From Lytechinus variegatus (lineage: Eukaryota; Echinodermata; Echinoidea; Temnopleuroida; Toxopneustidae): 64,000 nt of DNA. The notes beneath the pieces were generated by a model that saw only the letters and a program-made list of their open reading frames with translations, searched no databases and was not told where the DNA came from. A program made the position numbers and the translations under genes. The DNA lies in NCBI RefSeq assembly GCF_018143015.1, contig NC_054743.1:28864934-28928933 (forward strand). The letters are read 5' to 3'. Below are positions 3,238 to 51,356 of this stretch, in pieces. Position 1 is the stretch's first letter. Every line of letters starts with the position of its first letter.

Positions 3238-3398
3238 CCCACCCCTATCTGATGACTCCATAGACTTGTAATTTTTTTTTACTTCATTCCATTTAACATT
3301 GAATTCACACCTTGTAATCCTGTGTAACTACATTCTTGAAATTTTTACTTCACATCCTAACTGTATAAATACAAATGACTCTGTTAATAATTTTCAGG

Positions 3399-3494: not shown

Positions 3495-3592
3495 ATGTAC
3501 ATAATTCGGTACACCCACACGTGAGAATACGATTTACCGGTACCGCGGTAGAGGGAGTGCTTCACTTGTACTTCGGAATAATAAGATGGCGG
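3495..3592 (+). promoter_or_regulatory. Probable SON core promoter and 5' UTR
   Basis: An E-box CACGTG lies at 3518-3523, and AAGATGGCGG at 3583-3592 is a YY1-type element that contains the start codon itself, a layout common in TATA-less housekeeping promoters. The sequence from about 3535 is more GC-rich than the upstream retroelement. The transcription start is not visible from sequence alone. Confidence 0.5.
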
Positions 3593-3665
3593 AGAACTTG
3601 AGAGATGCCCTTCGTGATTTCGCCCTTAAAAAGATGCGGGATCTTGAAGCAGAGAGATCTAAAAC
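3586..3665 (+). CDS. SON: SON coding exon 1
   Basis: Encodes MAENLRDALRDFALKKMRDL and six further residues, then two bases of a split codon before the donor AAAAC|GTAATG. The pattern MA-x-N, hydrophobic heptads and K-x-R-x-hydrophobic matches the start of human SON (MATNIEQIFRSFVVSKFREI). Joining AC to the first base of exon 2 makes ACA and continues in frame through 18 upstream bases into the long exon 2 frame. The ATG at 12850 is therefore internal, not the start. Confidence 0.85.
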
Positions 3666-12600: not shown

Positions 12601-15600
12601 AACGGTACATTTATTGCTTGATTGACCAAATTCCTTCCCCTGCACATATTAAATCTTTGGTTTTGTACCGAGTTTAATATTCTATCCTACACTAGATGGT
12701 ATCTTCACATTAGGGGGGAAAATGGTATAACAAACCTCAGAAAAAGTCTTGAATTCGAGCATGGATAAGGTCAACTGTATAAAGTTATCTTTTATTCATG
12801 AAGCTGACCATCCTCTGCTTATCTTTTCAGAAGCAAGAAAGATGACAGTATGGCTAGTAAATCTCCCAAGTCAAGAAAGATAAAAATCAACAGGGATACT
12901 TCCAAACTGATATTAGGATCATCAAAAAAGACTGAAGATTTGGAAACGGTCAAGTCTGAATCGAAGGAAAGGACCAAGCGTCATCATGGGGAATCCAGTT
13001 CTGGGAACAGTAATAAGATACAGAAACTCATGAAGCTGTATGAGGAAGATGCATCAAATGCAGCGACTCTGAAAGGACAGGGTTCCAATGCCTCACAACT
13101 GGAAGGGTCTGCACCTTTAAAGACAACTCATGTTCTTGCAAACATTGAAGCAGAACCCCCGAATCCTGATGTCAAGATGACCAAGAAGGATTCTAAATCA
13201 ACAATTTTATTGAAAAAAGAACCTTCAAAGGCAGACCCTCATTTTAAGGCTTTACCATTGGGCAAAAAGATGGAATCTGATGATGATGTTGTTGCGGAGA
13301 AGAAGGGCGTTCCAATGTTGGGTGAAAAGAAAACGATCAAGATAAATATCCAAACCAAATTGTTGGCATTACCACAAAAATCAGAGAAAGTAATTGAAAA
13401 GGAGTCAGACTCGGACTCTCGCAGCAGCAGTGATGGTGATGATAGTAGTGACAGTGACGATGAAAAGTGGATTGCCGATGGTTTACCATGGAGAACCATT
13501 CTGGAAGATGGTGAGTTGTCACCTTCATCCGATGAAGCAGAAGAAGAAGGAGAAGAAGAAGGAAGAGGAGGAGAAAAAGACGTCAAGGAGACAAGTGAGA
13601 ATTTGGATAAGACTATAGAAGAAAAGGAAACAGAAGTGTTGGAAAGAAAGGGAAAAGATAAGCGATCCTCCAAACACAAACACAAGAGCAAACACAAGAA
13701 GCACAAGCATAAGAAAAGCAAAAAGAAAAAGAGTAAGCACAAACGCAAGGACAAACAGGAAAAGGAAAGTTCTTGTGTAAAGAATGCTGATCATGGGGCG
13801 AAAGGGGGAGTAGAAGTTGATGTTGAACAAAAGGGAGAAAAGGCAAGCTCTAGCAAGAAAAGGAGCAAAGAAGAAAAGCAGAAGGAATCAATGCAGGACT
13901 CAAAGGAGAAGAAAGGTAGGAGTAGTTCAAGTTCCAGTAGAAGAACAAGTGAAGAAAGGGAAGCAAAGGGAATAAAACAGGATGAAACTTTGAAAGATGT
14001 TCAGAAAAATATAAGTAGTAAATCCTCAGAAAGAAAAGAAAAATCTAGAAGTCATCATGGAAGTAGAAGTAGCTCAAAGGAAAAGCATGCAAAAGATGCG
14101 ATAGAGGTCTTTAAGAAATCAGAACCTGATTTGAGTGTGGAGACAGGCAGAAGAAAGCATGACATTGATAAAAAAGAGAAGGCCGATAGCAAGCATGAAA
14201 GAGGGTCCAAGAGCAATGAAAAAATTACCAACAGAGAAAGTCAGAAAGAGATAGAGAAAATCGAAGTTGATGTCAAATCTGTACATTTATCTAAAGAAAT
14301 AGAAAGAAGCATCAAGGTTACTGAACTAAAGCGAATTGAGCTTGAGGAAAAATGCAGAAATGTCACTGGAAGTAACATAAAAGCCAAAGAAGAAATGTTG
14401 CATGCCAAGACAAATTCTCGAAAGAGTGACTCAAAGGAAGAAACTGGGACTGAACAGGCAGGGCCAAATCCCTCGCATGCAGATGGAAGCATCTCAATAA
14501 CACTTTCTAGCATAAAGGATACTGCCAAAACTCAGAAAGATGGCAAAAGCAACTCTAGCCACAAAATTGATAAGCAAAGACATCATGAGAGTGAATCAAA
14601 GGAGGAGTCAAGACAAAGGGAAGACAGTAAGAATAGACATAAAACAGAGGAGGGTAAAAAGGACTCAAAACATGATGAGAGTTCCAGTAAGGACAGGAGG
14701 AAAGATGATAAGAGACACAAAGAGAAAAAGAAAGACAAAGACAAGGAAGATAAAAAGCGTCACTCCAGGAAGAATCAAGTAGCAACCAAAGTCAAGATTG
14801 ATCATCTTGAACATGACTTTCCATCTGCTGAAGAATATGCTGATGTTTCAGGCAGCATGGACTCAGCTGAAAAGAAGGATGATGTAGAAACTGATACGTC
14901 CACTCCAGTTGAATCTGAACTCTCTGAAATCAAGTCGCGAATTGGAAAGCCTGTTGAAGTGGTCCTGCTAAAAGAGGATGAAGTCGAGGCAGAAAATACA
15001 GACAAAAGCAAAGAAAGGGTGATTGAAGGAAAGGGTCACATGGACAGTCCTAATGAACAGGTAGATGTTACCACTGAAAACAATATAGCAGTTGTGAGTG
15101 ATTCTGAAAAGAAAACACCCTTTGCAGAAAAGTGTGGTGTGGTTCAGGACAGGCTAATTCTTGCCAAAGACGCTGCCAAAAGACCTTCTGAAGAAAAGAA
15201 AGATATTGCAGACTCGCCAACACCTGATAAAAATTTAGATAGTGCTGAAAGTCAGGTGGAAAATATTTCTATTGCAAAAGGAAAGACCAGTGATATTAAT
15301 AAATCAAACAAAGAAGGAAAAACTTCAGAAAATTCAGAGCATGTAGGCTCAGTTGATAATAAAGATGTTGCCTCCAAAATTGGGAAGAAAGAAAAAAGAG
15401 CTGACAGTACATCCTCATCCACAGAAAAAACAGAAAAATCTAACAAAAGTGAATCTGGTGAAAAGGAGACGGCTGCGAAGGATGTCAAGAAAGATACTGA
15501 CAGGACATCAAAGAAGAGGAAGAAAGAAAAAGCTGATGATAAAGAGGAAGGAGCAGTTGACAGTGAAATTGAAGAAGGTGAAATCGTTAAAAAGCACAAG

Positions 15601-18600
15601 AAAAGTAAGAAGAAAGATAAAAAGAAAGATAAAAGTGAGAAAGACAGGAGTGATAGAGACAAAAGTGAACACAGAGAAAGACGTAGGAGTAGGTATTCTG
15701 ATTCACGCTCAGAATCCCGTTCACACTCTCGCTCTCACAAGAAGCACAAAGGCTCACGTTCAAAATCACGCTCTGATGACGGTAGTGATAGTGACATAAG
15801 CATCGGGAAACCCAAAATGGTGGAAAAGAGTTATTTCAGTGAGTCAAGAGGCTGCTGGGTAACACGGATGGTCCCGAAAGAAGACGACAGTTCATCTGAC
15901 CCTGATGATGGAGACGAACCCTACGACATTGGCGACACCTTCATCCGCCATCCTGCACATGACAGAAGGAGCGTGTTTGACAGACTTGGCAGTGGGAGCA
16001 GCAGTCGTAGAGGACACTTCAATGACCGATATGACAGGCATTCACGCTATGGCTACAGTCGCAGAAGGGGGCGTTCCTATTCAAGGTCACGTTCTAGGTC
16101 GCGGTCGAGGTCCCCCAAGTTTAAGATTGACAAGAAGAAACTTTTGGAGATTGCCAAGGCCAATGCTTTACAGAGGATGAGAGCAGGAGAGCTGCCAGCT
16201 AATTTGCCCATCCCTGAATCCATTAAGAAAGCAGCTGACTCATGTAAGTTAATGTGATTCTACAAAAATGCACTTTTATGGTGTATCATTTTTATTTTTA
16301 TTTTTAGAAAGACTTAATAATGTTTTTATTTTTTAATGAATGCATTCTTGTGCTGAATAAATCATGAAATGATAAGGTAAATTAATGTTTTTTGCATACC
16401 TTTAGATATTTGTTCAAATGTTTACCAGCATAATTTTTACTCTTAGATTACAATCCAGTCATTTAGTGAAGAAAGGATGAAGCCATTGATGAAATAATAA
16501 TGTGTAATAAGAGTATAGGAACTTGTCCATTTAAAAAGGCAAATCAAACACCTTTAAAAAAGATAAATTTAAGTTTGTATAATGATTTTAAAATTTTTTG
16601 TATGATCAGTACAGAAATTCTTCAATATAGATTTTTTTTAATTGCAATCTGAAACTGGATTTTATTCAATTCAGTGTCTTAACAAATCGAATTTAAATAA
16701 TTTTGAATTGAATAAATTTTAAAAACTTCTATATATCTCTGAATGTCAAAAATTTATATATGGATTGCAGTTTTATTAGTTTTCAGACTACAGCATTTCG
16801 TATGTTTTACGTTTGAATATTCTGAAAGTGTCTGTGTTACTACATGTACAGCTAAAACTTGCATCATGTTTGTTATTCATCCCTTCTGTAATTTGTTGCT
16901 ATTGCTCCTACAGATGAGGTCAATGAATCCATCCAGAAGTTCACTGAGCGATGCAAGGCCTTGGCTAATCTTCAAGGAGGCAGTTCTGACGATGACTCTC
17001 CGGTGAACAGACCGGTCGGATCAGATGAGGAAGATGGGGATGAGTCTCAGAAACCATTCGTCAGACATCCTTTCAAGGTCAAAGAAGCGGCACCCATTGT
17101 ATTGAACATCAAGGTATTTTTTTTTTCAATTTCATTTTGGCATTTATAACTGCAACCTATACAAATAACCCTCCCTTTCTACATGTATATTAAATATTAA
17201 TGGCACAACAGGATATATTCTTAAAGCTGTTGTAAGTTCATGCAAGTGTGGAACCTACATGTAATGTACTTAAAGGGGAAGTTCACCCTGACAAAAAGTT
17301 ATTGTAAAAATGGCAGAAAAAATAATAAAAATTACTGCTGAAGGTTCGAGAAAAATTCATCATATAATTAAAAGTTATTAGAATTTCAATTATTTGATTT
17401 GTGACGTCATATGCGAGCAACATTCATACATAGTGAATGGTAAAAACTCAATGAAATGTCATTTTCTCAGAAAATTGAAAAATGGTTTTCACTGTACCTT
17501 TTGTATATCAATAGACAAATCAATTCACACTCGATCATGAATAGAAAACAAAATTTAAGTCGTCAGGAACCATACAAAATTTGAAATTCATGCATTTTAT
17601 ATTACATAACACATGGGACAGCTGCTCGTTTATGACTCAACAAATCCAAAACTTTGAACTCTAATAACTTTGTTACTCTTTAACAGATTTCCCTCAAACC
17701 TTCACCAATAGTTTTTACAATTTTTTCTGCTATTTTTGCAGCAAAGTTTTCTTCAGGGTGAACTTCCCCTAAAAGCCAATTGGTGGTTAGGGGCATAATG
17801 CTCATCCCCTCCCACCCCACCCACCTTCTGCGGGTGATATTCACTAAAACAATTCTCCAAAGAAATATAAAATGCAGACGCATTCATTTGTAATAGGCAA
17901 ATAAAATTGCAGCATAGAGAAAGCAGTTCTGTTAAAAAGATTATTTTAAGTAATTTTATGTAAAAACATTCATGCTACAGTCACAACGAAACAAGACTCC
18001 AAACTAACTGATGGTATGCCTCAGGAAATAACAGTTTTGGTCAATTTGTAGTCAGTTTAGCCAGTGTGGCTCGGGCACATTAAGTTGAATTTAATGAAAT
18101 TGACAATGAGGGTAATAATATGTATGATAATAATCATTGAGACGAATACCAATTGTAACAATTTAAAGTGAGTGTACACAGAATCCAATAATGTGAGCTA
18201 AGTGTGTGCTTATGTTGATAAAGAATATGTGCCAAAGGGTTCTAGCAGAAATTGTGCCTTTGCTGAGAAATTAGCAAAATGAGCATGGGATTCCTGTAAA
18301 ATGGCAGGTATTTTTTCAAGCAATAATACTACACTTGTCCCACATGTGCTTATCTGTTTTTCGCGATCGTATAGATTTCATGATTTTACAAAGTTCAGTT
18401 TACTAGTATGTAAAGTATACCAGATCTAGATCCATGATGAGTGACATTAACATTGGTTTTACAGATTGTCTCGTGGAATCGGTGTGCACTGAAACTAATT
18501 TAACTTATCTTTAAATCCTTTGTGGTTCTCTTTAGAATGCTGTGCAGATACCAGTGGGCGGTAAGGACACCCTGAGGGTTCAGTTCCCAGTGTCCAGTGG

Positions 18601-21600
18601 TTCCCAACATCGTAAGAAAGAGGAGGAGATCATCATTGCCAATGCCAATGACCCCTATGGCCAATGGACAGTGAGTAGTCATTGAGTGTGATCCCTACCA
18701 GGGGGCCGTTTCATAAAGCTGTTCGTAAGTTAAGAGCGACTTTAAGAACAACTGGCGAACCTTTCTTGCACACTAAACTAACGCCAATGGTGTACACCTT
18801 TTACCATAAGAAAGGATCACAAGTCATTCTTAAAGTCGCTCTTAACTTATGAACAACTTTATAAAACACCCACCTGGTCTGGGACAAACACCCTTTTGGC
18901 CATTCAGTTTCTCGCAACGGTACACATTCAAATAGATTCAAATTTAAGCAAGATTCCTGGATTATAAGATATCACAGAAAAGTTCACCTATTGATATGAC
19001 CTAGCGGATGACTCGGTCGAGTGTCCCAGTACAGTGCCTATAACTTGCACGTCAATACACTGATGCACGGTCACTGGGGCAGCCCTCAGTGTTGTGTCTT
19101 GAAAGAGTTACAATGTTTAGAATTAGTTATTTAAGTTTTGCATGAATTTCATCAGTTATCTTACTCTTTTCAAATATCAAATATTTGTGTGTACTTTTGA
19201 TATTCCATTGTCTTGAGTCTGTATTCATTTAGTGAACATTTGAATAGTGCAAAAATGTAGTGTTCGATTGCCGATTTTTGATAAAATGATCAAATGCATC
19301 AATCGTTAAGAGTTTTACTCCCAGGCCTAATCCCTACCAGATGCCTCCCTGGTAATGCACTCTTTGGTTCCTTTTTTTCTGCAAAATACAAAACAGAATG
19401 ATTTAGCAGAATGCAAAGAAATTTATGGAAAACCAAAAAAATATTGTGACAAAAAAATTATGTGAAAACATGGAAACAAAAGAAGACCTATTGCTGCTGT
19501 ATTTCCTGTATTTGATACCAAATAGGTGTGATATCAATCTGCATGTCTTGTACAGATTAGATGCATGGATTATATTTTCAACAGCGAATTGATGATTGAG
19601 ATGAAATGATATTTTTGTTTATTTTCAGGCTGTTGAGAAACCAGAGCCCAAGCCAGAACCGAAACCACCGGCAGCACCCACCACAAAGGCCAGTACTACT
19701 ACTGCACCACAGCCACCAACTCCGGCAACTGGGCCAGCAGCCGCACCCGCAACTACACCGGCAACTCAGACTACCCCAGCAACAACAGCCACACCTCCTA
19801 CTTCTGTGGCTTCTGCAGCTGCTGCTGCTCCTGCCGGACCATACATTCCTGGGGTGACCAACATCCAGCCACCAAAGCCGGTTGCAGAGGAGGACAGGGT
19901 CTTTGAAGATGCACCGGGATTCGTAAGTATTTGTCATGCAGCAGGCCTAGTGGATGATGCAAGAATCTAATTTGCACTTGATTCAAAATTTCACTTATTT
20001 TAAATTTCAACTTAGGTAATCAATCGATGCATTTATTTTTTGCTATTGGCAGACGAGAAAATCAGTTGCGTACTTACAGTTTGCCGGACATGTGAATGCT
20101 TTAGGGGCCCAAATTTGTTAGCCATTGATTGCATTTCTTTTTACTCCAAACGTAAAAGTTATAGGTGACAGAAGTCATTTTTTGACAATTTAACATTTTA
20201 ACTTTTGATATATTTCTCACGTGGCAAAGGCGGAAGCATTAATTTCTGCTGCTTGGAGTCAATAATTCACCTTTTATTTGTTGTCATTGTTTGCACAAAA
20301 TACTTTCCTCTAATTTCCTTGTGTTATGAAGTTTATAATTCTTTTGTCATTCCATTTTGTACAGTCTTATGACATTGGTCAGATTGTTTCTGCGAGACTG
20401 AAGGCCGCCAGAGCTCTACAATCCAATCCCAATAATGTGGAGGCGCTCACTGTTCTTCATCACTCACAAAAACAGGTCAGTTGAAAGGAATCTTGTGTCT
20501 CTTTTTTCCAACCTTGACAGAGGTTGACCTTGTTTGATCCAATAACTTGTGAAACAAAGAATTGCAAATAATATATGATTATTAACGTCCAGATATACAT
20601 CTATGCATGTTAACATGTGGTAATTGCATTTTTACAGTACCGGTGTCTTAATAAATGCAGACATGCCAACTGTTTCGGTTTTAGAGTATTTGTTCCTTTT
20701 TTTATTGCTATGAATACGCCAATATCATTTATTTGTATGATTTGTTACTTTTTTATAAATTTTATGAATTTTTAGAGTATTTGTTCCTTTTTTTATTGCT
20801 ATGAATACGCCAATATCATTTATTTGTATGATTTGTTACTTTTTTATAAATTTCCAGTCATGGAGTATGTATTATATACAGCGTGCGGCACTTGAGCTGG
20901 TCCGACAGTCCCAGACTGGTAAAAATCACTGTCGGGCCAGTAACTTGTTGCATGAAAAGAACAAGTAATTTTTTTCCTACGAGCACATGTTTAAAATGGT
21001 GAATGATCAAGCTTTCAAGGAGAGTCAATTCACATGTTTTTCACCGATCTCACTTCAACAGGATGGTGATTGTTGCGTTGAGACAAATTTTTAGAAATAC
21101 TCTTTTTTTGTGAAAAAAAATACTTTTTTTCCTTCGAAGGATTCCTTTTTTTTGTAGAAGGTTAACAGTTCTGTGATTGATGGTGACGATTATCTAAAGA
21201 GAATATAATCAGTATAGTACTCCAAATGGCAAAAAGAAAAGTAAGAGATTGCTAGTTACCCATGGCAAATTGCCATTACGTCACTTACATGTACAATCCT
21301 ACTTTAAGAGATTGAAAGTGGCAAAACAAATCAAAAATACTGTTTTTGCTAGAAGGGGAAAATCTCATCAAATGCAAATTGGAAATGTTTAATATTTCTT
21401 TCAGGTGTACGATTCCTTGTAAGATGAGTGTGCTAAATGCAAATTTCCTTATTTGATTCTTCAAAATTATTCACTGTGTATTAGATTCGGACATGGGCGC
21501 ATAGCAGCAAGAAACCTGGTTTGTTCACAGGTAGCACTGACGCTACTTTCCTCCGTCCAGAACAGCTTAGTAATCCGAATAGAAAAAATCAAGCGTGGAT

Positions 21601-26040: not shown

Positions 26041-26049
26041 AAATTATGG

Positions 26050-26545: not shown

Positions 26546-26559
26546 CCTTTCAATGGAAG

Positions 26560-28428
26560 TTGGTTGGTTACCAAGTATTTTGGTTCCGTTATTTTCCCAA
26601 ATTAGTATTCCAAAACATGTAGAGTGCATTGATGGTTGAGATGGCATCAGTTCCCACCAATCTTGCTCTCTATGAAGACGATTAGGGCTGAACTTCCAAG
26701 GGATTTTATATGTAATGCTTCTGGGAAAACATTCAAATTCATTAGATGATCTTTAAAGGTTTTCATGATGGAGAGAATAATGGAAGTTTTTTTGGTAAAC
26801 ACCATGTATGTGTAATGCAGTGTACTTATCATTGAGTGTGTCAATACATGCACTTACATGTAGTTCTCTCTGTCAAACAGGGTGCGGAACAGTTTTGAAA
26901 GTGGGAGGAGGGCTGGCCATGCAGAAGATAATCAGATAATCATTTTTACATTTGTGTTTTTGTGGAAAAAGTGTGTGGGGGTGGGCTACCACAGCCCCTG
27001 TCAAATACATCACAGGATGATTAAGGTAGGTCACCAGAAAGGCATGGGTACTTTCTTCATTTTCTGTGGGCTTGTTTATAGAGTACCATTGGCTGTTGAG
27101 TGTTCGAACAATGGCACCGCTAGCAGTTGCCATTGTAATTACCATTGATGAGAGTCAATGGTCAAATTTAATACATGTTGGTCCAAGGTAAAATCTTTTA
27201 CAGACTGAACCCTATTTAAATTTTAACCACATTTTAGGATTCTATTTTCTCCCCCCAAATTCCAGACCAAACTTGTTTTTCTTTAAGGGGGTCTGGTAAA
27301 TTTGACCCAATCCCCTTTTAATTTCCATAAGTACTTGTACATTTTATGTGTGCAACAAGTATTTGACTGGTTAATGCAATTACCATTTGAACAGCACGAA
27401 ATAAACTTGACTGAGGCTAGAATTAATTTGGTAATTTTTATATCCGTGTTTCATCATAATGATTTTCATTAAGATTAAACGCTTTATGAAGAGTGAAAAT
27501 ATATTTCAGGACAGGAAGAAGAAAAGAGCGTCATGTGTAACTACAGTCAACTCTTTCCTGTATTGGAATTGGAAAAACACTGAAGAAATTTTGGTTTTAT
27601 GAGTTGTTAACATTAAAAAAATTAGAAGACCAATAAGTTTTATAAGAAATTGTGTAAACTTAGTATTGCAAAGGTTGCACATGCATTGTAGGTTTTCTGA
27701 CCTAAGACCATGATTAGTAGGATTCTTGCAGTTTAAAAAAAAAATTTTTTAAAGAATATATTAAAGCAAATATCAAAAAGATTAAACACATTTTATTTTT
27801 TTAACATCTTACTGTACAATGTACATTGAGAATTTTCTAAAGTTGTCATTAAATTATGTTCAAGGTTTGAAATGGTTTGAATAATGCTGTTTATACATTA
27901 AAATAAATTAACCATGCTACTAAAATATGCATTTCACTTTGTCTTTATTGTAGTTTATAAAAATTCATTATAAATTTGCATTATGTCACATACATACACG
28001 AAATATACTATTGATAGTTACATCTGTACAACACGGTAATAAATACATTTCAGAATTCAGGAATTCACCTCTTGCATTACACAAGGTAAAGTTCCCAATT
28101 TTCTGCAATACAAAAACAGAAAAAATTCAGAGGTAAGAAAAATTGAATGGGAAACATGGTCTTAGCATTTGATACTGACATCTACGAACTATATTTATAC
28201 CTTCTGTATATTGCCGATTAGAACAGAATTTTATTTTATAATTTAGAACGACGGACACAGAATTGCTATTTTAGAAAAAGGGGGACTTTTTCCAAGGAAC
28301 AGGACATCTGAAACAAATTTTTTCTCTCTCAAGATTACACTTTTAAGACCCAGACCGGACCCAAAATGAAATTGATAAATCATATAACAATCGAAAGCTA
28401 ATAAATTACTTAATACAGAAATCCAACC
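26560..28428. other. AT-rich intergenic stretch, nothing recognised
   Basis: No exon, RNA gene or convincing repeat was recognised. The short open frames near 26.9-27.1 kb lack any family resemblance. Confidence 0.45.
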
Positions 28429-28432
28429 TTAA

Positions 28433-28998
28433 AGGACAAGTCCACCCCAACAAAAAAAATATAACAGCATAACACTGAAAATTTCATCAAAATCGGATGT
28501 AAAATAAGAAAGTTATGACATTTTAAAGTTTCCCTTACTTACACAGAACAGTTATATGCACATCTCGGTCGGTATGCAAATGGGAACTGATGACATCACT
28601 ATTTCTTTTGTATTCTATTATATAAAATATGAAATATTTTTATTTTCTCGTCATTGTCATGTGAAATGAAGTTTCATTCCTCCCTGAACACGTGGAATTC
28701 CATTATTTTAACATTTTGTACTTCAGGCAAGGAGGTCCTAATCATCGAATTCGTAAAAATTGAAATATTGTAGAATTTAAACAATAAAAAACAAAAGAAA
28801 TAGTGAGTGACATCATCGACTCTCTCATTTGGATGTAACTGGCTCATTCATATAACTATTTTGTTAAAAATAAGTGAAACTTTGAAATGTCATGACTTTC
28901 CTATTTTACATCCGATTTTGATGAAATTTTCAGCATTGTGCTAGTCTGATTTTTCTCTATTGATTCAAATCAACATTTTTCTGAGGTGGACTTGACCT
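28433..28998. mobile_element. MITE with TTAA-flanked inverted ends
   Basis: AGGACAAGTCCACC at 28433 is inverted as GGTGGACTTGACCT ending 28998, with TTAA directly outside both ends (28429-28432, 28999-29002). Inner arms also pair, for example AAATTTCATCAAAATCGGAT against ATCCGATTTTGATGAAATTT. TTAA flanks fit a piggyBac-type target duplication, though a shorter TA duplication cannot be excluded. Confidence 0.75.
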
Positions 28999-29812
28999 TT
29001 AATGCATTTTCACCACTTAACAGCCGAGTATTTTGCTTAAGAACAGCTTTAATTATAGGGCTTCCAAAATAGACTTTCCTGTAAATGCTCTCACCGGCCT
29101 CGATACCACAATGTCATATTGTGTTAGAAGCAGTGTTAATTCCATACAGTGTGTTTTACACAGAAAAAGTGGGCAATTTTCCCCCTTTCAAGATTACGCA
29201 TTTTATTTTCTTCACTTCTATCACATAAAGATATCATTGATGTCTTTTTCTGCAAGCTTGAATTGATAAAAGCTACGGTTTTTGACCAGTTTTCACCATA
29301 TTGTAATTCCTGCCAATTTGGCACAGCTTCCAAATTATATCTGCATTCAGATTATGTGTAACAAGTTTTCCTGACATAGCAATTTAGGCCCAATAAGAGC
29401 TAAGAAAAATCACAAAAAAATCGAGTGACAAGTTGTAGTTGTTTCCATCCATTTGAGCACTGAAAATTGTTATCGTAATTTCTTTTTTTGGCAAAATGAA
29501 AAGAAAAATTATATTCTGAATCTGAAACACAGAAAAATAACCCCCCTTTTCAGTGTCCAAGTTCTACAAGCCTATGGAATCATAACGCCTCTAACACAAT
29601 ATGACGTCATGGTCTTGAGGCCTAAGAAAGGCAATGGAAAGCCTTTTGTCCAAATTCACCGCGAAAACCGCTAATTTTAGATTTGCTTAAGCAAATTACT
29701 CATGTCAAGCGGTGAATATGCATAAAACTTTTTCTATTTCACTCAATTTATGTAGCTTACATATTTCCCACTTGTAAATTGCAATTTTAGAGACTGATTT
29801 TCCATCTAAAAA

Positions 29813-30025
29813 AATGGTCTTTTCCATTTTTAAAAATCTGTAATTCCGTTTCAACTTGATCTAAAAATGGAAATTCAGTTTTGTCACTGAAAATGTACAC
29901 AACAAAAACCTGAATTCCATTGCCAGTCTTTGCAAAGGTGAATTCCATAAATTTTTACATGAAAAGTATAAGAACCAAACTGAATTTCTGTTTTATTTAC
30001 TGGTAAAACAGAAAATCACTGTCAC
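29813..30025. repeat. ~210-bp dispersed repeat, inverted relative to 33236-33455
   Basis: Shares AAATCTGTAATTCCGTTTC, GATCTAAAAATGGAAATTC and CAGAAATTCAG-type blocks with the segment at 33236-33455 in opposite orientation, 3.2 kb away. One copy lies downstream of the DONSON stop and the other in a DONSON intron. Confidence 0.7.
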
Positions 30026-30684
30026 TATAATTTAAGCTCTGGTCTGGGTCTTTAAAGGATATTTAAGGACTTAAAATTTTTAATTCAGTATACCAGGATG
30101 GTAGCCAGTATGGAAAATATTTGAAACAATTGAAAACTAATATGGGAAGACTCCAAGGGTCATTGGTAATGGTCAGTGTTGAAAAGGATTGGGAGGATTG
30201 AAGAGTTGAAAAATGAGAGAAAGATGATGAGTAGGTGAGGCAGAGTATCCTCTCTTGAAAATGAGTGAGAAGTGATGAAATCGTGAAGACCAGAGAAATC
30301 TGCTTGACTTGAGTAAAATTTGAGTTACAACAAGTACACAAAACACGTTTTGCACAATAATGGTCTAATATTACTTTGGCTTATCATCGGTGGGCTAATA
30401 AAACCTTGTATCTCAAAAGCTTTTTAAAAATTAGGACAGTTAAGAAAAAAAGCTTTAATTTCAGAATTAATACAAGAGCAGCAATCTCACATTGTCTGAA
30501 TCCTGTTGAAAACTCTCTAGGCAAAAGAATGTTGCCACTTGTATCATAGCTCTGAAATATATATATTTTTAGATGTCTGTGAAATGTTCCAGTTTGAGAT
30601 ACTAGGATTCAACAGCACACCGACGTTATGCAATTAAAGGACTTTATGAAAAATATAAAGTCGAATATGTAGACTTGACCATAA

Positions 30685-31044
30685 TTATAAGAATAAGCCA
30701 TCTTTGCACAACACCTCCTTGACTGGTAGATTCACAGTACACATGCTTGTCAAATATTCTGCCTGACTTTTAGATAGTCCACAGTTCATTCTCAATGCAT
30801 TCAATTTCTCACTGTCCCATGTGTCTGTCCCTCCCTTCTTCTCATTCGTGGAATGTGAACAGCTCGTGAATGGCGACGTTGCTTCGTGATTGCTGAGGGC
30901 CATCTGGAAAGCGCCATCTTGCGTCCTACGCAGGAGATGGCAGAGGCTGTGGATGTTGTGTGGCATGACGGGGCCCGTGACCTCTAGACTACTGAGCTCT
31001 ACCAGTGATTGGTTGGTCTGTTGCTTCAGAGTGCCTGATTTCAA
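30685..31044 (-). CDS. DONSON: DONSON exon 10 (C-terminus)
   Basis: Encodes SLEVTGPVMPHNIHSLCHLL (human [20 protein letters not shown]), an insertion with a short Lys/Gly stretch, then LNALRMNCGLSKSQAEYL (human KELTNCGLHPNTLEQL) and the end KEVLCKDGLFL. The stop TAA lies at 30687-30685. Confidence 0.95.
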   Translation of the reverse strand: MKSGTLKQQTNQSLVELSSLEVTGPVMPHNIHSLCHLLRRTQDGAFQMALSNHEATSPFTSCSHSTNEKKGGTDTWDSEKLNALRMNCGLSKSQAEYLTSMCTVNLPVKEVLCKDGLFL

Positions 31045-34000
31045 CTGGAATTTAACAAGAGGAAACAAATGTTAACACCACGACAGAGCAAGTGCATTAT
31101 TTGTTTTACAAAATAGGCTTTACAGTACTTGCTCTTTTTCTCTGTTCTATGACAGAGCTGCAAACTTTACTAATTACCTTTTAGGAAGAATTTACTGAAA
31201 AATAAGGGAGATCTCTCAAAAAATCAATGTGTGTATCAGGGATAGGTTAAAAATCTGCTATTTTTTAGGGAGTCTGACAATCGCGGAGACTTGGCAGCCC
31301 TATTATGATAAACACCACAGAAAAACTTTTACCTGGTTGGCTAAGAGCAAGTTTAATTGGATCATCATTCACAAGGTGCTTTGAGAAACACCCCCTGGGG
31401 GAATCCCCCATAAGATATCCACGAATGAGTATTACCTTACAGCTGTGGAGGGTAGCCCCTTTGAAGGGTAGAGGTGAGAGGATGGTTGGGGGTATGTCGG
31501 CTAGCGGACCTACACTGGTGAGCACCGTCCGGCTATTCAGGAGGAAGTTGTACAAGGCTTGGGTGTCCAGTCCTTCCACGAGAACCAGAGATTGTGGCCG
31601 ATTGTCCAGCTTAAGCAGCTGGTCAGATTGGCTGAGGATAGCGTGGTCAAGGAATCACTCTCAAACGGCTTGAGAAACAAATGAATTATAGCAAGTTTTT
31701 AAGTGTAGGTTTTGAAGATTTCCACATGCCAAAATATCATTCATAATAACTTCAAGAGATCACCCCTGTCTGTGTTAATAGTAGGTTCATAACAGGTCTA
31801 TGTTCCTCATAAATGCTTAAACATCAAATGCACATGCAACATGATGGAAACTTGGTGGCTGTTTCATAAAGCTGTTTGTAAGTTACGAGAAACTTTACGA
31901 ACTGTCTACTGTCTATCCTTTCTTGAGGTAAATCATGTGCCCCAAATTTTCAATGGTGTAGATTTAACTCCTAAGAAAGGATCATCAGTCATTCATAAAG
32001 TCGCTTGTAACTCAGGAGCAGCTTTATGAAAACCAACCTGGGCACAATTTCATGGAAGTTGTTAACACAATTAACTTAAGCGAGTCATTCTCTGACAGTT
32101 GTAATGGAAACAGTCTGGGCCAGTGATTCTATTAACCCTTATTAAACTGGGGGGGTCAATTTGACCTCCCCCCTCCTTGAAAAACTTTTTTGACCGTGCC
32201 ACTCACTGTCCTACTACTTTCAAGTCTTGTACATCTTTCGAGACCAAATCTGCGATGCCCTGGTACGCGTTCACAAATTACGCAATATTTTGTAAGTGCA
32301 AAAACAAAGGTTTGAAAAAACAAAGAAATATGTAACAATTAATAAAATACATAGGAAATTAATGTTTTGGGGGCAATTTTTTTTAGATTTTTGTTAGAAA
32401 TGTAGAATTGATAGGTTCACAAAAAATTAGGATTCTTCTAGCTGTATAAGGTGAGTTAAAGGCAAAAACATACACACAAAAACAAATTTAGGGCAAATAT
32501 CAGATGCTTATTTGCATAATTAATCAATATAACGATATAAGCGATCAATTTTTTTTAATTTTACAATACAGTTTTGGAAATGTGCATGCAAACTTCTGCG
32601 GCGATCGCGCAATCAATGGCCGAGATCTGGGGGGGGGCAAATTTACCCCCCCTCTCCCCATATTATGTTGGTCCGAAATAGCCCAGCTAAGTTAGGGTTG
32701 AAGCCAATCAAAGTCTCTAATATATTTAGCACAGACAAATATTAACAGACACCAAATGATGAACATATATACCAAGTCTCATAGCACAAACATTAAAAGG
32801 GATACAATTTGACTCTGGTAGGTTCTAGCGATGGAAAATTAGTCTTATCAAGACCAATGCTCTGCAACCATGACGATGCCTTGGTAGGGCTTTGAAGGAT
32901 GTCTTCCTCTTCCTCCTCCTCTGTTGGCTCTTCTTTTATCTGACCTTCTTCGTTGTTGGGCTCAGACAGCTCATCAGTCTCTCCATCAGGACAGCTGAAA
33001 GATAAATATGAATCAATAATAACTTACAAACTGATGTAGTGAGTAAAAACATTTTTTTTTTTCAAATTTTAGAATCTTCATGAGTAAAAAAATGTAGAGC
33101 TACTATTACTATTGTATTTTCATAAAGTGACGGTTGTGGTTAAAGCTCATCGTTACCAAAAATAAATTGAAAACTATGCAAATGAATAAACATAGAAATA
33201 TCTTATTTCATCCAACCTTTATGGATTAAGAGGGACAGTAATTTTCTGTTTTACCGGTAAATAAAACAGAAATTCTGTTTGGTTCTTATTCTTTTCATGT
33301 AGAACTTCATGGAATTAATCTTTGCAAAAATGGAATTCAGGTTTTTGCTGTGTACATTTCCAGTGACAACACAGAATTTCCATTTTTAGATCAAGTTGAA
33401 ATGGAATTACAGATTTTCAGAAACGGAAAAGACAATTTTTCAAAATGGAAAGAGGTTGATATTGATCCTACAATCTTTAAAAAAAAATATTTTCTATTTT
33501 CTAAATATTGATTTCTTTTAATTTGGTGGATTCACAATATGGTGCGCCAACTATTGGTAGCAGCGAACAGGCCAAATTTCTTACTTCGGGGTCGACATTG
33601 CACGTAGATAGCGCACGGTACTGGAATGAGACTGTGATGCTTCAAAAATGAAAACCGTATGGCAAGAATTAATAATAATAATAATGCTCAATTCTTGTAT
33701 AGCACATCACACATAGCATAGTGTAGGACTGTTATTTTGACAATTGGTTTCCTTTAATAGTTTAGTTATTTACAGTTCAAGCTTTGGTATTTAGTTCAGC
33801 TTTGTTTACATTCCTGATGCTTCTGTTGTCATCCATTTACATTTGACTTTCAACCTGCTTCTCCTGTCATTCCTTTCCTATTCAGATGTGTTCATTCATT
33901 ACATTCCCACATCTGATTCTTTTGTTCAACATTCTTATTATGTAATCATCCCAACATCTTATTCATCTCCATCCTCTATCTCTTATTGGTTATTTTTATG

Positions 34001-37000: not shown

Positions 37001-40000
37001 TTTAGTTCTTTACTTTTTAAAAATTGAGGACAATTTTTTGAAAGAAGGATGTTTATGTAGGACTGTTATTTTGACAATTGGTTTCCTTTAATAGTTTAGT
37101 TATTTACAGTTCAAGCTTTGGTATTTAGTTCAGCTTTGTTTACATTCCTGATGCTTCTGTTGTCATCCATTTACATTTGACTTTCAACCTGCTTCTCCTG
37201 TCATTCCTTTCCTATTCAGATGTGTTCATTCATTACATTCCCACATCTGATTCTTTTGTTCAACATTCTTATTATGTAATCATCCCAACATCTTATTCAT
37301 CTCCATCCTCTATCTCTTATTGGTTATTTTTATGAATTGGACTTTTCCACTTTCAGTTGGCTTCTCCATTCTCTTTATTCTCATTGGTTGATTTTGTGTA
37401 ATTTGAATATATGCTAATTTTGTATGAGTTTTACTGAGGCAAGGAAGCCCAGCAAATATAGCAGTGCACTACCAGACTTCATCGAGTTAAGTTCTATTTT
37501 GTTCCCGTGTCTTTCGAGTTAAGTTCCCTCTTCTCCTCTCCGTTTGCTTCTGTTTGATGTGTGATTGAGCTTATGTTACTCCTTCTTCAGTTATTTAATT
37601 TCCCCTTAAACTGTATTTTTTCAACCCCACAATAGCATGTCCCTATGCGCTTGAAGAAGAAATAGTGAAAGGTAAGAATAAAGTAATCAAGATATTTAGA
37701 TTGGATCATTAGTTCAAAGTTGGTATTTCATGCATTGAAAAGATATGTTTTGAGGGATCTCATGAATGTAAATAAATCACTTTGATATCTCATTGAATTA
37801 GGTAAAGCATTCCAGAGGACAGCTGAGGCATGAGTAAAAGCACGCTCACCATATGACTTTGTAAAGACGAGGGAAATAATGCTTTTGAGCTTGATCTAAG
37901 ATTTCGGGATGGCTGGTAATATGATATTAAATCGAGTAAATAGGACGGGGCTATTTCTAAATATTGTTAAAGAATTCACACAACAAACGGTTGGAAATAT
38001 GTAGGTTTATTTCTCTCCCACCTGCTGGGCCCCAGTAAAAAGCATATCCGGTCGAGCTGTATCGGCCAGCACTTAATAATTGCATGCATGCAGGCACTGT
38101 ATGACTAGCAGCGCAACTTTTTCCCATGAGGCATATTGCGAAATTTGGCCTGTCTGCTGCAACTGATGGCGCACCATAACTGCGAATCCATCGAATTATG
38201 TGCTCGTCAATCACTTCATGAAACCAGGAATAAAATGAAATGCCACCAGTTTATTTGCAGTTGATTTCATTCGGTGTCAGTCTGTGAAATTACTGAATAA
38301 AAGATTATTCATGTTATAATTAAATGGACGGGCGTAGTACCTTTCTTCCGCAACATTGCTTTGTCGATCTGCAGTGGATGTAGTTGGCTTTGACTGCGGT
38401 GGAGATGGAACTTCTTGATGTAGAGGCATGGAATAACTGATTCCTAAATATCAAAAGAATTTGTCAAGAAAACGAATATCATGCAGTTTACTCTCAATGC
38501 ACACAGGTTCAACTAATCTTGATTATATAATTCAAATTGTGAATTTGCATGCAAAATCCTGTGTTCATGCTTGATGCAACCCTCAGGCTGTGCACTTCAG
38601 TTGCAGAATTGTTTTTATACAGTTATTTTTTTATGCATATCTGCACTTGAGGACTTGAAATTAAAAGACAGAGTGAAATGTTTATTTTATCAAAGAAAAT
38701 GATATGGCAGAAAGCTACCCGGCCTTAGGTGCACATCATCATATTTCATGGCTACATTTACGATGTCATAATACAAAGCAAATAGTGACCTTGCTGTCCT
38801 CCAGAGTTTCAACAATTTCTGTACTATAATATTCACACAGTTGACACATATAAAAAAAAAACACTGGTTCCTGCAAGGCGAAAGCACTGTGTGATCGATC
38901 ACCTTAATAAGATTCTTACACTATTTGAATGCTTATATAATGTGCACCATTACCACTAACACACTCTCACCTGTGCATTATTTGTAAAATATTGTATAAT
39001 ATATGTTTATAGCAACAACAACAATCTCAGGTATACTGCATATCCCACATATATTTTGAGAACTGGTTCACAAATCACAGTCATGATTACCAACAACCTC
39101 ACACAACTATAATTTCTTTGTATTTCACATTTTCTCATTTGTTGTTTTAGCTTATACGTCACGTATCATTCAGTAGTGAATATTTGAACATGCATCAGAT
39201 AGTCTTAACCACAAAGATCACTTGAACATAAAGACCACTCTTTCTCATATCCCTTTAACAAAAGTCATTGACTTAATACCTTCAGTTTTTAATGCCTCTC
39301 TAAGCCCTCTAGTGGTTGGGGTCATGAGAGCATGCATAGTGGGCGTGGCACCGACACCAGCTGCTCTGAAGAGAACAGTAAAGTGATGCGTACACAGATA
39401 GAAATACGGGCAATGACCTGACCGCAGCAAGTGGAATACAGATCGGAAACTCTCTGACCTAGATTGAGGGACAATCAGGATGATCTGCGTTAATGAAGCA
39501 TTTGCAATAGATTGATAAATATTTTACATCATGTCTTAAGACATCAATTAGCAACTAGTGTCTTCTATCTTGTAGCACAATGGGATGCAATTTATAGAAT
39601 AGTTGAAATGGCAATTAATACACAGGAGATGGAAAAAGAGGAGGAGGATGTACAGGAAGATGGGGGAGAAAGAGGAGGTAGAGAAGGAGGATTTGGAGAA
39701 GTATAAAATGATGAGGATAGGAGCGGAGGAGGTTCTAATTCTCCCTCCTTCATTATTGAGGAAAGAGAAGTTAAAAAAATGAACTTTAAATACACTTCAT
39801 CACCTCTGGTACATGGACATAATACACAGATCAACTCCACCATCTACTTTTTAAATGTCTTATGATGAACAGAAACTTGTAGAATATTTACATGCAAAGG
39901 ATTACCTTAGGCGGGGGAAATTTAATGAATACTGCACTCCTCATCATCATAAGATTTGTAAATTGAATCCTAATTAGCAGATACATATCCATGTACATTA

Positions 40001-43000
40001 ACAACAAAGGCTATCTATATTACTGATTGTGCATCTTTTGATTTACATGTAATATATTGGTGTTCGAGATTTGAATATCCTGTGATTAATTATTTATTTA
40101 ACTTTTTTGGAAGAAAAAAAATCGATCCGTATTGTGCAGTATATTCCAGATACAACTGCACAGAGACTAAATATGTGCACTTTACCAATTTGTCATCAAG
40201 GCAGTAGCTATAGCTGGCTCCTTGGTGGCGACTGATTGCCTGCAATAAATAAAGAGATAAAGGAAAGAAGAATTTCCAAGATTAGTTGTTTTGAAAATCT
40301 ACTTATGTGACTACAATATTTACCACGTTTAAATTCAAATCAGAGTTGGGAAAGAGGTGAATATTCTTCATTTTACTGATAGTTTTCAATTAAATCAAAA
40401 TAACTTCAAGGAATTATGGAGAAAATAGATGGCCATTTCATGGATTTAATGATGTAAAATTTGAAATTTCAGCAATTTTCTTTTTTTTTTAGGAGCGCGA
40501 TCGCACCAGCGCTCCTACCTCGCTCCTAAAAAAAATAAGAACAAAAAATCGCGCTCCTCAAAAATGAAGGTCTGAATGATGACGATGAGGATGATAATGA
40601 TGATAAATAGCTCTTCCATCATTTATCATTATCTGAATACGAGGAGGTGGACAAGGAGAAAACGAAACTTACTTGAACTTTTTTGGTTCTGGTACAATCC
40701 TTGGGAAGAGGTTCAGCCATGGTAGATCAGGATGCATCCAACACATAGTAGCCTGCTGTAGGTCACTCCTCCAACTAGACTCATCAACAGGCTTTTCATT
40801 CTAAATTAATTCCAAGCATACACATGGGTGATCGTAAATGGCAAGTCAACAGAGATGAAATTAACATTTAAGCTTTCTGGCCAAAGACTATTGTGTTGTG
40901 ATGTATGCCTGTAATCCAAGCCACGTGGGGGGAGTTACAAATTGATGCAGATTTTCGAGCCTTGGACAACGGATGTGATGTTTAATAAATGTTGCTCCAA
41001 GATGTAAATAATCATTTCTTCTGCAGAAATTCCATCACTAAAATTTTAGAGTTTGCATGCCAGTTTTGTACATTACCTTCTTCTACTATTTATGATATCG
41101 CTTTGATATATCCTGAACTATTTCATTCCATTAATGTTCTTTGATAAATTCATGATATTGTGGTGTACACATGGTAAACAGCATCCATAATCATAAAATG
41201 AAACTGCCTCGTAAAATAAAAAATGCATTATAATATAAATATACCAATGCTGACTATTATGACAGGACTTCTGTTTTGTACAGTATGACACCTTGTTTAA
41301 TTCAAGGCTGTGTGTGTGCAGGACAATCAACATGTTAGTTCTCACAATAAATTGAAATATGATGTAAGTTGACATTTTTTGTGTAGAATTGTCAATATTT
41401 GATAGTGTGGGGGTTGGCAAGGTCACATTCTTAATCTCTAAAGAAAATGAGTACAGAAAATATTTCTGTCAAACAAATAAAAATATATGAATAACATGCA
41501 ATTCTCACAGAAATTTTGAGTAAGAATATTGCAGGAGAGAGAATGAAGAAAGAGACAAAGAGAGACTCGAGCCCAAATCTTAGCAGAACTTTGCATGCAC
41601 GCATCCCCATCTATATGAATCCAGTCCCCCCCCCCCTCTTTACTCCACGCATGCACTCAGAAAAGTAACCACCAAACTATTGCACTTTTCATCCATCAGT
41701 GAAGTACCAATATGGTGTACGGTAAGCCTCACTTGCACATTTCACAACCCATCCATGCAATGTAGTTCAGTGGGAGCCTCACCTCAGTATCAGGACCATT
41801 GTCACCCTGTACAAATGAGCATAGTCCCCTGGCCTCCTCCTTCATTCGTATTGGTTGGCACCAGCCGAACGAGCTGCGTGACGTAAAGCGAACGCGAGTT
41901 CTGAGACACCAGTCCGGTGATAGGTCAGGTTTACCTCTAGCAAGGGATTCAATAAAGGTTTTATCGGTCGGCTGAAATAAAACGAAAATGGGTGGAACCA
42001 GTCAAGCGAGGAAATGATAACTGTATTTGGTAGTTTGCACTGCCCCTTTGTAAACGAGCAAAGTATTTGAACAGAATCAATCATTTTATTTGAACAAAGA
42101 AATAAGAGGGAAGTTGCATGTGCATTGATCAGTAAAGTTCATACAATGCATATCAAGTATTTAAATTAACATGAATCAACTCTACCCTGTGGTGTAATAC
42201 GACATCTTTATAATAGCTCAATTTAATCTAGTTTATTTGTTTGAATTTTGAGAAACACTGTATTCACCTAAAGTTCCTACTTTTTTATATGCTCTATACT
42301 GCCTACTCAGGTCAGCAAAATACTTGAGTGATGACAATTCAAGTTCACTGGACAATTCATCCCCAGTGATTGAAGGGAAAATGTTTAGAACCTGATTAAT
42401 CTTTTACCAATCTGTACAACATGGTTTGCAGTTAGGCAATCATTTCTAAGGATCCATAGTGTGAATCAAATGGAACATGGTTTACCTCTTTTGAAGAATT
42501 TGGCAGCTTCTTTTCTTCCTCTGCTTGTATAGCTTTTATAGCCTTGGTCAGTCTCTGACATGCCTCTACATCAAATACCTACAAGGTGAAGATAAAGATG
42601 TATGTACAATGTAAGTTAAGGTACATGATATAGTACTGAATGGCAATAGTGCTTTTAAATTTCATTTTTATAACAATGCTGTGTTCAGTCTTAATGCAAA
42701 TAATCAATTTCTCCTAAAGTTCTAAAGATATATATATCATTAGGGTTCAGGGTTGTGACAGAGTTTTTTAATCACAATACTTTTGAGTACGGTATTGGGA
42801 TAATGAGTTGACCGTTCATCAGGGTTTAAATTATTCTAAGGTCATTTTAGAAAATGGCTTTATGATTTACCTCAATACCCCCTTTAATTGACCCCAGAGT
42901 GTCTTTCCTTTTGACTTTTTTTCTTCATTTGTGATGAAATGTATGTAGAATTGTCCTCTATAGAAAAGTTGCCTTACCTAAAAATATAGAAATGCATAGT

Positions 43001-43428
43001 CTGTAATGGATTTTGGCTTCTTCATGTGCAGAAATGGATGTGAGAAATTATTGCCACCCTCCATGGCTCTGCCCCCCTTCCCCAACAAAAAATGAACATA
43101 CCTCATCTTGCTGCGAATCAAGTGCAGTGAAAAGCTTCTGATGATTTCTCCCATGATCCTTTGCATCAAGCTCCTTCTGCCCTCCAATAACTTCACTTTG
43201 AATTCTCCTTCTCATGACATTGCTGCCACCCCCGCTACCGAATGGATTCCGCCTCTTCCCACTCCGGCCCTCCCCTGGTCTGGCCGAATGCGACCCAGCA
43301 TTGACCAGCGACTGGTCGGACATGAAGGATTTCGTAGTCAGATCGCTGGTGCTTCGGCGATTTCGCTTCATCCGCACCTTCATAACGTGGGAGGGTTTGG
43401 TCCATTGCTTGCTTGGTGAAGTTTCCAT
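30685..43428 (-). CDS. DONSON: DONSON, replication factor (ten coding exons)
   Basis: Coding exons in transcript order: 43428-43102, 42578-42486, 41971-41783, 40800-40673, 40239-40186, 39458-39280, 38443-38341, 32994-32806, 31631-31436, 31044-30685. Donors are GT and acceptors AG throughout, phases agree, and the product is 605 residues against 566 in human. DONSON works in the nucleus in CMG helicase assembly, bringing GINS to loaded MCM, and in replication-fork stability. Diagnostic segments: RRNPF near the N-terminus, the TR-x-RFTS block, WMHPDLPWLNLFPRI, CPYFYLCTHHFTVLFRAAG, TPTTRGLREALKTEG, PPTILSPLPFKGAT and EVTGPVMPHNIHSL, each with a direct human counterpart. The start METSPSKQWTKPSHV was chosen because the next residues (MKVRMKRNRRS) align with human VVRLRRKRARS. 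It is convergent with SON, as in human. Confidence 0.95.
31436..31631 (-). CDS. DONSON: DONSON exon 9
   Basis: Encodes DNRPQSLVLVEGLDTQALYN, LLNSRT and GPLADIPPTILSPLPFKGAT, matching human [20 protein letters not shown] and GLPPTLLSPVAFRGAT. The donor is AAG|GTAATA and the first base completes a Phe codon with exon 8. Confidence 0.95.
31854..32038. mobile_element. Palindromic MITE (GCCGTTTCATAAAGCTG family), copy 2
   Basis: GTTTCATAAAGCTGTTTGTA and AAGAAAGGATCATCAGTC flank the centre, ending GAGCAGCTTTATGAAAAC. It is the most diverged of the four copies. It lies in DONSON intron 8. Confidence 0.8.
32132..32699. mobile_element. TIR element with TTAACCCT ends and G/C runs
   Basis: TTAACCCTTATTAAACTGGG at the left is mirrored by CAGCTAAGTTAGGGTT at the right, each followed inward by a G- or C-run (GGGGGGGTCAATTTGACC; GGGGGGGGGCAAATTTACC). 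A relative starts at 59797. DONSON intron 8. Confidence 0.65.
32806..32994 (-). CDS. DONSON: DONSON exon 8
   Basis: An acidic exon: Glu-rich run, then SSWLQSIGLDKTN, comparable to human FSWLEEMGVQDKI after its own acidic run. The donor is AAATT|GTATCC, a weak but phase-correct site; it joins exon 9 to read RVKFQSD. Confidence 0.85.
33236..33455. repeat. ~210-bp dispersed repeat, inverted partner of 29813-30025
   Basis: See the partner for shared blocks. Located in DONSON intron 7, just upstream of the LTR element in plus-strand order. Confidence 0.7.
33517..33578. repeat. Outer inverted repeat around the LTR insertion (left)
   Basis: TATGGTGCGCCAACTATTGG and CAGGCCAAATTTC recur inverted at about 38148-38200. 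The pair encloses 4.6 kb, including the LTR element and the older repeat it entered. Confidence 0.6.
33722..37631 (+). mobile_element. LTR retrotransposon fossil, non-coding (Ty3/gypsy-like by primer site)
   Basis: Two direct repeats, 33722-34260 (539 bp) and 37056-37631 (576 bp), both start TGTAGGACTG and end CCCTACA or CCCACA (TG...CA). The flanks are the 4-bp direct repeat ATAG at 33718-33721 and 37632-37635. A primer-binding site TGGTAGCAGCGG starts at 34263, complementary to the 3' end of initiator-Met tRNA with a mismatch. The 2.8-kb interior has no gag or pol, so it looks non-autonomous. Its first part holds degenerate ~56-bp tandem repeats (GTGAGTGGATGAA phrases near 34513, 34570, 34625) and the rest is very AT-rich. 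The first ~405 bp of the two LTRs look identical, suggesting a fairly recent insertion, while the outer ends differ. It lies antisense in DONSON intron 7. Confidence 0.8.
37636..37960. repeat. Older dispersed repeat split by the LTR insertion
   Basis: The sequence ending ...AGCACATCACACATAGC before the LTR element resumes after it as CATGTCCCTATGCGCTTGAA, so the insertion interrupted one pre-existing repeat. The right part continues to about 37.96 kb. Confidence 0.5.
38341..38443 (-). CDS. DONSON: DONSON exon 7
   Basis: Encodes ISYSMPLHQEVPSPPQSKPT and further polar residues, matching the position of human IEFSLPLIKES. Phase 1 in, phase 2 out. A 5.3-kb intron with the LTR element separates it from exon 8. 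Confidence 0.9.
39280..40800 (-). CDS. DONSON: DONSON exons 4 to 6
   Basis: Exon 4 (40800-40673) encodes LQQATMCWMHPDLPWLNLFP. Exon 5 (40239-40186) is only 54 nt and encodes SVATKEPAIATALMTNW. Exon 6 (39458-39280) encodes SFRSVFHLLRSGHCPYFYLC, THHFTVLFRAAGVG and TPTTRGLREALKTE. Joined, they reproduce the human order LIYWLHPALSWLPLFPRI, LMSDWSVSFTSLYNLLK, CPYFYVCTYQFTVLFRAAG, SPTTRGLREAMRNEG, the most conserved part of the protein. Confidence 0.95.
40486..40562. repeat. Short inverted repeat with GGAGCGCGAT ends
   Basis: TTTTTTAGGAGCGCGAT is mirrored by ATCGCGCTCCTCAAAAA, with two further GCTCCT copies inside. It lies in DONSON intron 4 and looks like a very small MITE remnant. Confidence 0.6.
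41783..41971 (-). CDS. DONSON: DONSON exon 3
   Basis: Sixty-three codons, phase 0 both ends. LSPDWCLRTRVRFTSRSSFG and MKEEARGLCSFVQ correspond to human [20 protein letters not shown] and QEEAQGLVQHC. Confidence 0.93.
42486..42578 (-). CDS. DONSON: DONSON exon 2
   Basis: Thirty-one codons (VFDVEACQRLTKAIKAIQAE then a Lys/Glu stretch), GTAAAC donor and TAG acceptor, phase 0 both ends. No strong human counterpart; accepted on splice sites and phase. Confidence 0.8.
43102..43428 (-). CDS. DONSON: DONSON exon 1
   Basis: Encodes the basic N-terminus (MKVRMKRNRRSTSDL), GKRRNPFGSGG (human ARRNPFARL) and ends LDSQQDE before donor GAG|GTATGT. Open frame continues upstream to an ATG at 43479, but the ATG at 43426-43428 gives the length that fits human. 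Confidence 0.88.
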
Positions 43429-51262: not shown

Positions 51263-51356
51263 GACTCTGGAGTTCCTCACATATATCAATATAATTGTGA
51301 TCATCAATTCAATTGACAGATAATAGTTTGTATTCTTTTTCATTTCAGATATCAGG

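Follow-up and report, generated by a model that had tools for sequence, protein, structure and literature searches.

SON and DONSON are convergent neighbours in the sea urchin Lytechinus variegatus, on a contig carrying several gene families of human 21q22

The question raised by this locus is whether function or mere luck keeps old gene pairs together. SON serves RNA splicing and DONSON the start of DNA replication, and on human chromosome 21 the two genes lie tail to tail. Here they make a clean case, with the pair kept and its neighbours dispersed along one contig. The window, that is the whole stretch of 64,000 nucleotides that was analysed, is C4:28,864,934-28,928,933 (C4 being contig NC_054743.1) in the Lytechinus variegatus assembly of 869,567,369 bases and 33 contigs; positions are those of the window unless given with C4. 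According to the original prediction, the two genes are convergent neighbours with a gap of about 5 kb matching the human arrangement, and a pairing kept across deuterostomes suggests a shared constraint.

A SON-type gene was found on the + strand at 3586-25630, with an RS-rich exon, a G-patch and a dsRBM (Table 1). Its ATG lies exactly at 3586, the left-end coordinate first proposed. All introns as modelled are GT-AG with agreeing phases, the exon end at 21607 having been placed by eye. The model joins the first coding exon directly to the large exon across a 9.2-kb intron, so an exon may have been missed there. In the 479-aa C-terminal part, Pfam identified a G-patch at residues 343-383 (1.3e-14) followed by a dsrm domain at 407-474 (9.5e-15), and gave no match at 0.05 for the first 341 aa; a K/R/S-rich open frame of 1,149 codons precedes this part. 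The first exon and the FPVSSGSQHRKKE block, which we take to be a SON block, presumably resemble human SON. The RS domain, G-patch and dsRBM are all present, and these make up the SON domain list in a passage of PMC4394511. In the PDB, 21 sequences matched at E <= 0.001, none of them named SON. When 1,450 bases of the large exon were compared with the assembly, two of the 46 matches were full-length (100 and 99%) and the other 44 covered short stretches of the lysine-rich part, about 41-104 bases each.

DONSON occupies 43428-30685 on the - strand, with its ATG exactly at 43428, GT-AG introns and agreeing phases. The model encodes 605 aa after removal of one doubtful exon. This candidate, at 42391-42281, is probably not coding: in the second copy of the locus (see below) 13 of its positions are mismatched and 17 gapped, and without it the PDB score goes up from 292.1 to 294.7 bits. 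Homology runs along the body of the protein, as the model matched Xenopus DONSON (PDB 8q6o, chain R) with E = 1.2e-86 over query residues 7-560 and chain residues 10-541, and the C. elegans homologue (8ouw, chain F) with E = 1.9e-20; these were the only two distinct PDB sequences matching at E <= 0.001. Pfam assigned no family at 0.001 to the first version of 642 aa. A 170-aa DONSON query gave four exon matches in the assembly, at two places, both on C4 and each adjoining a convergent SON copy.

Table 1. Features of the SON-DONSON region, in window positions, and places of 21q22 families on the contigs; remarks on exons give the differences seen in the second copy.
Feature	Position	Strand	Remarks
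SON coding exon 1 (MAENLRDALRDF...)	3586..3665	+	ATG, GTAATG donor, phase 2 out; 2 mismatches/80 nt
SON large exon, K/R/S-rich + RS region	12831..16243	+	1,149-codon open frame; TTTTCAG acceptor, GTAAGT donor; 40 mismatches, 18 gapped positions
SON exon	16914..17113	+	GT-AG; 0 mismatches
SON exon with FPVSSGSQHRKKE	18536..18670	+	GT-AG; 2 mismatches
SON exon, P/A/T-rich	19629..19922	+	GT-AG; 3 mismatches
SON exon	20365..20475	+	GT-AG; 1 mismatch
SON exon, ends ...QAWIKK	21485..21607	+	acceptor, GTTTGT donor; 4 mismatches
SON exon with G-patch	23930..24077	+	Pfam G-patch 1.3e-14; 0 mismatches
SON exon, first part of dsRBM	24738..24925	+	Pfam dsrm 9.5e-15; 0 mismatches
SON last coding exon, dsRBM end	25517..25630	+	stop 25628-25630; 0 mismatches
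Interval between SON and DONSON stop codons	25631..30684	.	5,054 bp; 5,046 bp in second copy
Facing AATAAA signals, candidate 3' ends of convergent transcripts	27902..27949	.	not above chance; + signal is AACAAA in second copy
MITE-like interspersed element	28429..29002	.	574 bp; ends inverted, TTAA on either side; other copies close by on C4
Interspersed repeat	29799..30026	.	87% identical to 33231-33451 in DONSON intron
DONSON exon 10	30685..31044	-	stop 30687-30685; 4 mismatches
DONSON exon 9	31436..31631	-	identical
DONSON exon 8	32806..32994	-	identical
DONSON exon 7	38341..38443	-	6 mismatches
DONSON exon 6 (CPYFYLCTHHFTVLFRAAG)	39280..39458	-	identical
DONSON exon 5 (short)	40186..40239	-	3 mismatches
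DONSON exon 4	40673..40800	-	identical
DONSON exon 3	41783..41971	-	12 mismatches
DONSON exon 2	42486..42578	-	identical
DONSON exon 1	43102..43428	-	ATG 43428; identical
NRF-6-like gene (pieces only)	51327..61693	+	Pfam NRF at 2.6e-07 for the X-joined pieces
GARS_A (GART)	C4 18.09 and 21.07 Mb		8 matches, nowhere else
Runt (RUNX)	C4 32.59, 32.71, 38.39 and 38.50 Mb		
UPF0220 (TMEM50)	C4 21.31 Mb		single place
OSCP (ATP5PO)	C4 15.90 and 18.53 Mb		
DJC28_CD (DNAJC28)	C4 33.49 and 37.61 Mb		
GCFC	C4 17.21 and 20.15 Mb, C19 9.65 Mb		ambiguous: PAXBP1 vs TFIP11

SON and DONSON are thus adjacent and lie tail to tail. Both gene models, their orientation and their end coordinates bear out what had been predicted for the pair. 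The likeness to the human arrangement holds for the convergent order and fails for the size of the gap, since the 5 kb are measured from stop codon to stop codon and not between transcript ends, and mouse Son and Donson transcripts are said to have been found by Wynn and colleagues in 2000 to end about 65 bp apart. Besides the repeats in Table 1, the interval carries inverted arms at about 29026-29701. No evident gene was seen by eye among its 55 frames of 40 or more codons, although a small or noncoding gene remains possible; the 10 of these 55 frames scanned against Pfam gave no match at 0.01. Rfam returned no match at the gathering score, and scans for relatives in viral contigs and genome contigs were unproductive. 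Six AATAAA signals were counted on each strand of the interval, where shuffles averaged 7.1 and 6.8. There was one facing pair within 60 bp, compared with 0.49 expected, and this number was reached in 36% of 500 shuffles.

The locus occurs a second time on C4, inverted, at C4:42,365,993-42,406,987, corresponding to window 973-47123. Beyond the window start, the similarity extends upstream for about 32 kb, up to the end of the compared stretch; on the NRF side the copies are not collinear within the 14 kb examined. The second DONSON has an unbroken 605-aa frame and 10 exons with the lengths of those in the window and splice sites kept; of the codons that differ between the copies, 12 are synonymous and 13 change the amino acid; the second SON was compared exon by exon. 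Mean noncoding divergence between the copies was 4.0% (101 windows of 250 bp) and very uneven (chi2/df 6.9), with six windows showing no difference where 0.02 were expected. Such unevenness is better explained by alleles, or by gene conversion, than by one old duplication. Matches to Runt and DNAJC28 are mirrored about C4 35.55 Mb; the doubled GART, GCFC and OSCP matches have direct orientation and lie 2.6-3.0 Mb from each other, and TMEM50 and PCNA were each found at a single place. The second copy is probably an uncollapsed haplotype that was assembled as a mirror image. The C4 stretches compared contain no N, so possibly the inverted duplication on C4 is a real rearrangement. The genes of the window may be counted twice in an annotation. 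In SON intron 1 (5898-9225), minisatellites of the TTAGACCAAATGGC type at 5945-6392 and 8753-9216, on opposite strands, flank a block. In the second copy this block sits elsewhere (C4:42,352,853-42,355,459), which suggests that it was displaced in one piece.

Comparison of the two copies also allowed divergence in the interval to be set against that of the introns. In the aligned parts only, with window 18734-20770 omitted from the chained alignment, divergence was 2.9% in the interval (20 windows) and 5.0% in introns (56 windows), a difference that was not significant (Mann-Whitney p = 0.12); significant extra conservation of the interval was dropped as a candidate on this result. The interval was alignable throughout, with 60 gapped positions of 5,054. 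SON intron 1 had 6,442 unaligned bases and the longest intron of DONSON 4,596, and the other introns could be aligned in full. Overlapping 3' ends were likewise rejected as an established fact, the facing signals being at chance level and the + signal being altered in the second copy. The shared constraint that had been proposed for the pair found no positive support here, as the facing signals are at chance, the divergence of the interval is not significantly lower, and interspersed repeats lie inside it.

The contig was then considered as a linkage group. C4 measures 66.4 Mb, or 7.6% of the assembly. Families with human members at 21q22 were used for a profile search of the assembly. Six of the seven had a place on C4, one of them (GCFC) ambiguous; the seventh, Ribosomal_S6 (MRPS6), gave no match in the assembly. 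Neither of two controls fell on C4, PCNA being on C18 and TBP on C7; two weaker TBP matches fall on C17. Under independent placement, five clear families on C4 would be expected about three times in a million. The families are scattered across 15.9-38.5 Mb, and this spread over many megabases indicates that the order within the linkage group was reshuffled. GART was not head to head with SON but at least 7.8 Mb from it (SON begins at C4 28.87 Mb), one GART copy and TMEM50 are about 0.25 Mb apart, and about 3.7 Mb separate the DONSON start from the closest Runt match. On the + strand, a Dopey gene (Dopey_N, TPR_DOP1) begins at about C4:28,974,208, at a distance of some 66 kb from where DONSON starts; human DOP1B is, we assume, located at 21q22. 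In a passage of PMC8385949, SON, GART, DONSON, TMEM50B, CRYZL1, ITSN1, PAXBP1 and ATP5PO form one chromosome 21 signal and RUNX1 belongs to another.

Several observations were made around the pair. The NRF-6-like gene is head to head with DONSON, about 8 kb away, and seems to pass the right end of the window and to run on to about C4:28,939,046, as suggested by a further acyltransferase-like frame that was recognised by eye at C4:28,938,693. Pieces of a rhodopsin-family receptor (Pfam 7tm_1) lie at C4:28,835,383-28,842,957, about 25 kb upstream of SON, and represent the nearest non-repeat gene recognised by eye on that side among frames of 100 or more codons. The reading of such frames included C4:28,846,000-28,864,934 and C4:28,925,000-28,975,000 in full; genes with short exons may be missed in this way. 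Just upstream of SON, window 1-367 holds the last part of a reverse transcriptase frame from a non-LTR retroelement (C4:28,862,609-28,865,300, by eye). At 1877-3240, an inverted pair of similar frames (YQFTCARCKARYIGQTKRHYG...) looks like a mobile-element fragment; the frames presumably have a GIY-YIG look, and Pfam gave no match for them. Similar inverted frames about 5 kb apart, at 45369-45710 (-) and 50461-50745 (+), are probably mobile-element copies or ends. A tRNA-Gln (ttg) was called at 57104-57176, inside what we take to be a tRNA-derived SINE.

The arrangement is best explained, with a probability of roughly 0.72, by an ancestral adjacency common with vertebrates, inside an old 21q22-like linkage group, that was retained passively. 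The tail-to-tail order would have been inherited from an ancestor common to vertebrates; while the order of the linkage group was reshuffled, SON and DONSON would have stayed adjacent and convergent, and the pair may have survived rearrangement passively, with neither an overlap of 3' ends nor any other element specific to the pair. Both the ancestral adjacency and the passive survival are what we infer from the gene order, passive retention being a default rather than a demonstrated explanation. Its presence in an echinoderm would date the SON-DONSON neighbourhood to a time before the vertebrates. In human, TMEM50B and DNAJC28, DNAJC28 and GART, GART and SON, and SON and DONSON are neighbours. 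One of these four relations is kept here, which fits an ordinary slow decay of gene order; that it is only SON-DONSON could also hint at a holding force. The pair might then be under selection across deuterostomes, for instance for a coupled termination of growth-linked genes, the three other relations having dissolved, and we regard this as unlikely. The wider claim of a pairing across deuterostomes stands for two cases, this genome and, as linkage, the lamprey (a passage of PMC4236176). An independent meeting of SON and DONSON in this lineage is hardly credible, as C4 also carries most of the tested 21q22 families and the lamprey links Son and Donson. No evidence in its favour was found, the linkage group is common to human, and by our own estimate, for shuffling inside C4 only and with about 1,900 genes assumed, the chance is about 1 in 4,000 per given convergent pair.

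If there is a holding force, it could act on the 3' ends, where converging or overlapping transcripts would couple SON and DONSON via antisense RNA or termination. Both copies are convergent with near-equal spacing (5,054 and 5,046 bp), there is one facing AATAAA pair, the interval is fully alignable and nominally less divergent than introns, and the mouse transcripts reportedly end about 65 bp apart. However, the copies may be alleles, so that the equal spacing says little; the facing signals do not exceed chance and one of them is AACAAA in the second copy, and the interval, with interspersed repeats inside, is not significantly less divergent. Selection of this kind is therefore considered quite improbable. 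SON and DONSON are both growth-related, which counts for a shared housekeeping chromatin domain with co-expression in proliferating cells, where separation would be mildly harmful. Co-expression is also higher in gene-dense conserved blocks according to a passage of PMC8851819, but the neighbourhood here is not dense as far as genes were recognised by eye in frames of 100 or more codons. On the DONSON side the NRF-6-like gene follows at about 8 kb, on the SON side the receptor pieces lie at about 25 kb, and retroelement frames stand between. A domain of this kind is considered unlikely. The block could also be locked by a developmental regulator such as RUNX, with enhancers in or beyond SON and DONSON as bystanders. 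Runt genes are indeed on C4, and a passage of PMC4236176 links lamprey RunxB to Son and Donson; with the nearest Runt match about 3.7 Mb away, such a lock is very unlikely. Passive retention of an ancestral pair thus stays the preferred reading, and the finding by itself shows no new mechanism.

Among the papers on DONSON that were consulted, only PMC4236176, in the passage concerned, bears on linkage outside jawed vertebrates; passages of PMC10626419, PMC7615117, PMC4124147, PMC6292497 and PMC9905133 contain nothing on the arrangement of the pair outside mammals, and 'donson' is absent from the main text of PMC3698058. Peptide strings searched in the literature returned no papers.

The closest likeness is to the mammalian GART/SON/DONSON locus, reportedly described by Wynn and colleagues in 2000, where SON and DONSON are adjacent and convergent as here. 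In the mammalian locus GART is head to head with SON, whereas here it lies on the same contig at least 7.8 Mb off, and 5 kb, partly made of repeats, separate the stop codons. As this genome lacks the head-to-head pair of GART and SON, the SON-DONSON neighbourhood can be separated from it. Conserved ancestral microsyntenic pairs are said to have been described by Irimia and colleagues in 2012. Unrelated neighbours kept for very long, as here, are found in such pairs and in genomic regulatory blocks (passages of PMC5722932 and PMC8851819); the blocks have a regulatory constraint and a developmental partner gene, whereas neither is demonstrated for SON-DONSON. The lamprey RunxB locus, which contains Son and Donson, shares with C4 the linkage of the two genes and a Runx gene in the linkage group; the passage in PMC4236176 gives linkage without orientation or spacing, and on C4 the pair and the closest Runt match are about 3.7 Mb apart. 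Set beside these systems, the adjacency of SON and DONSON in this sea urchin is real, probably inherited and a case of a known kind.
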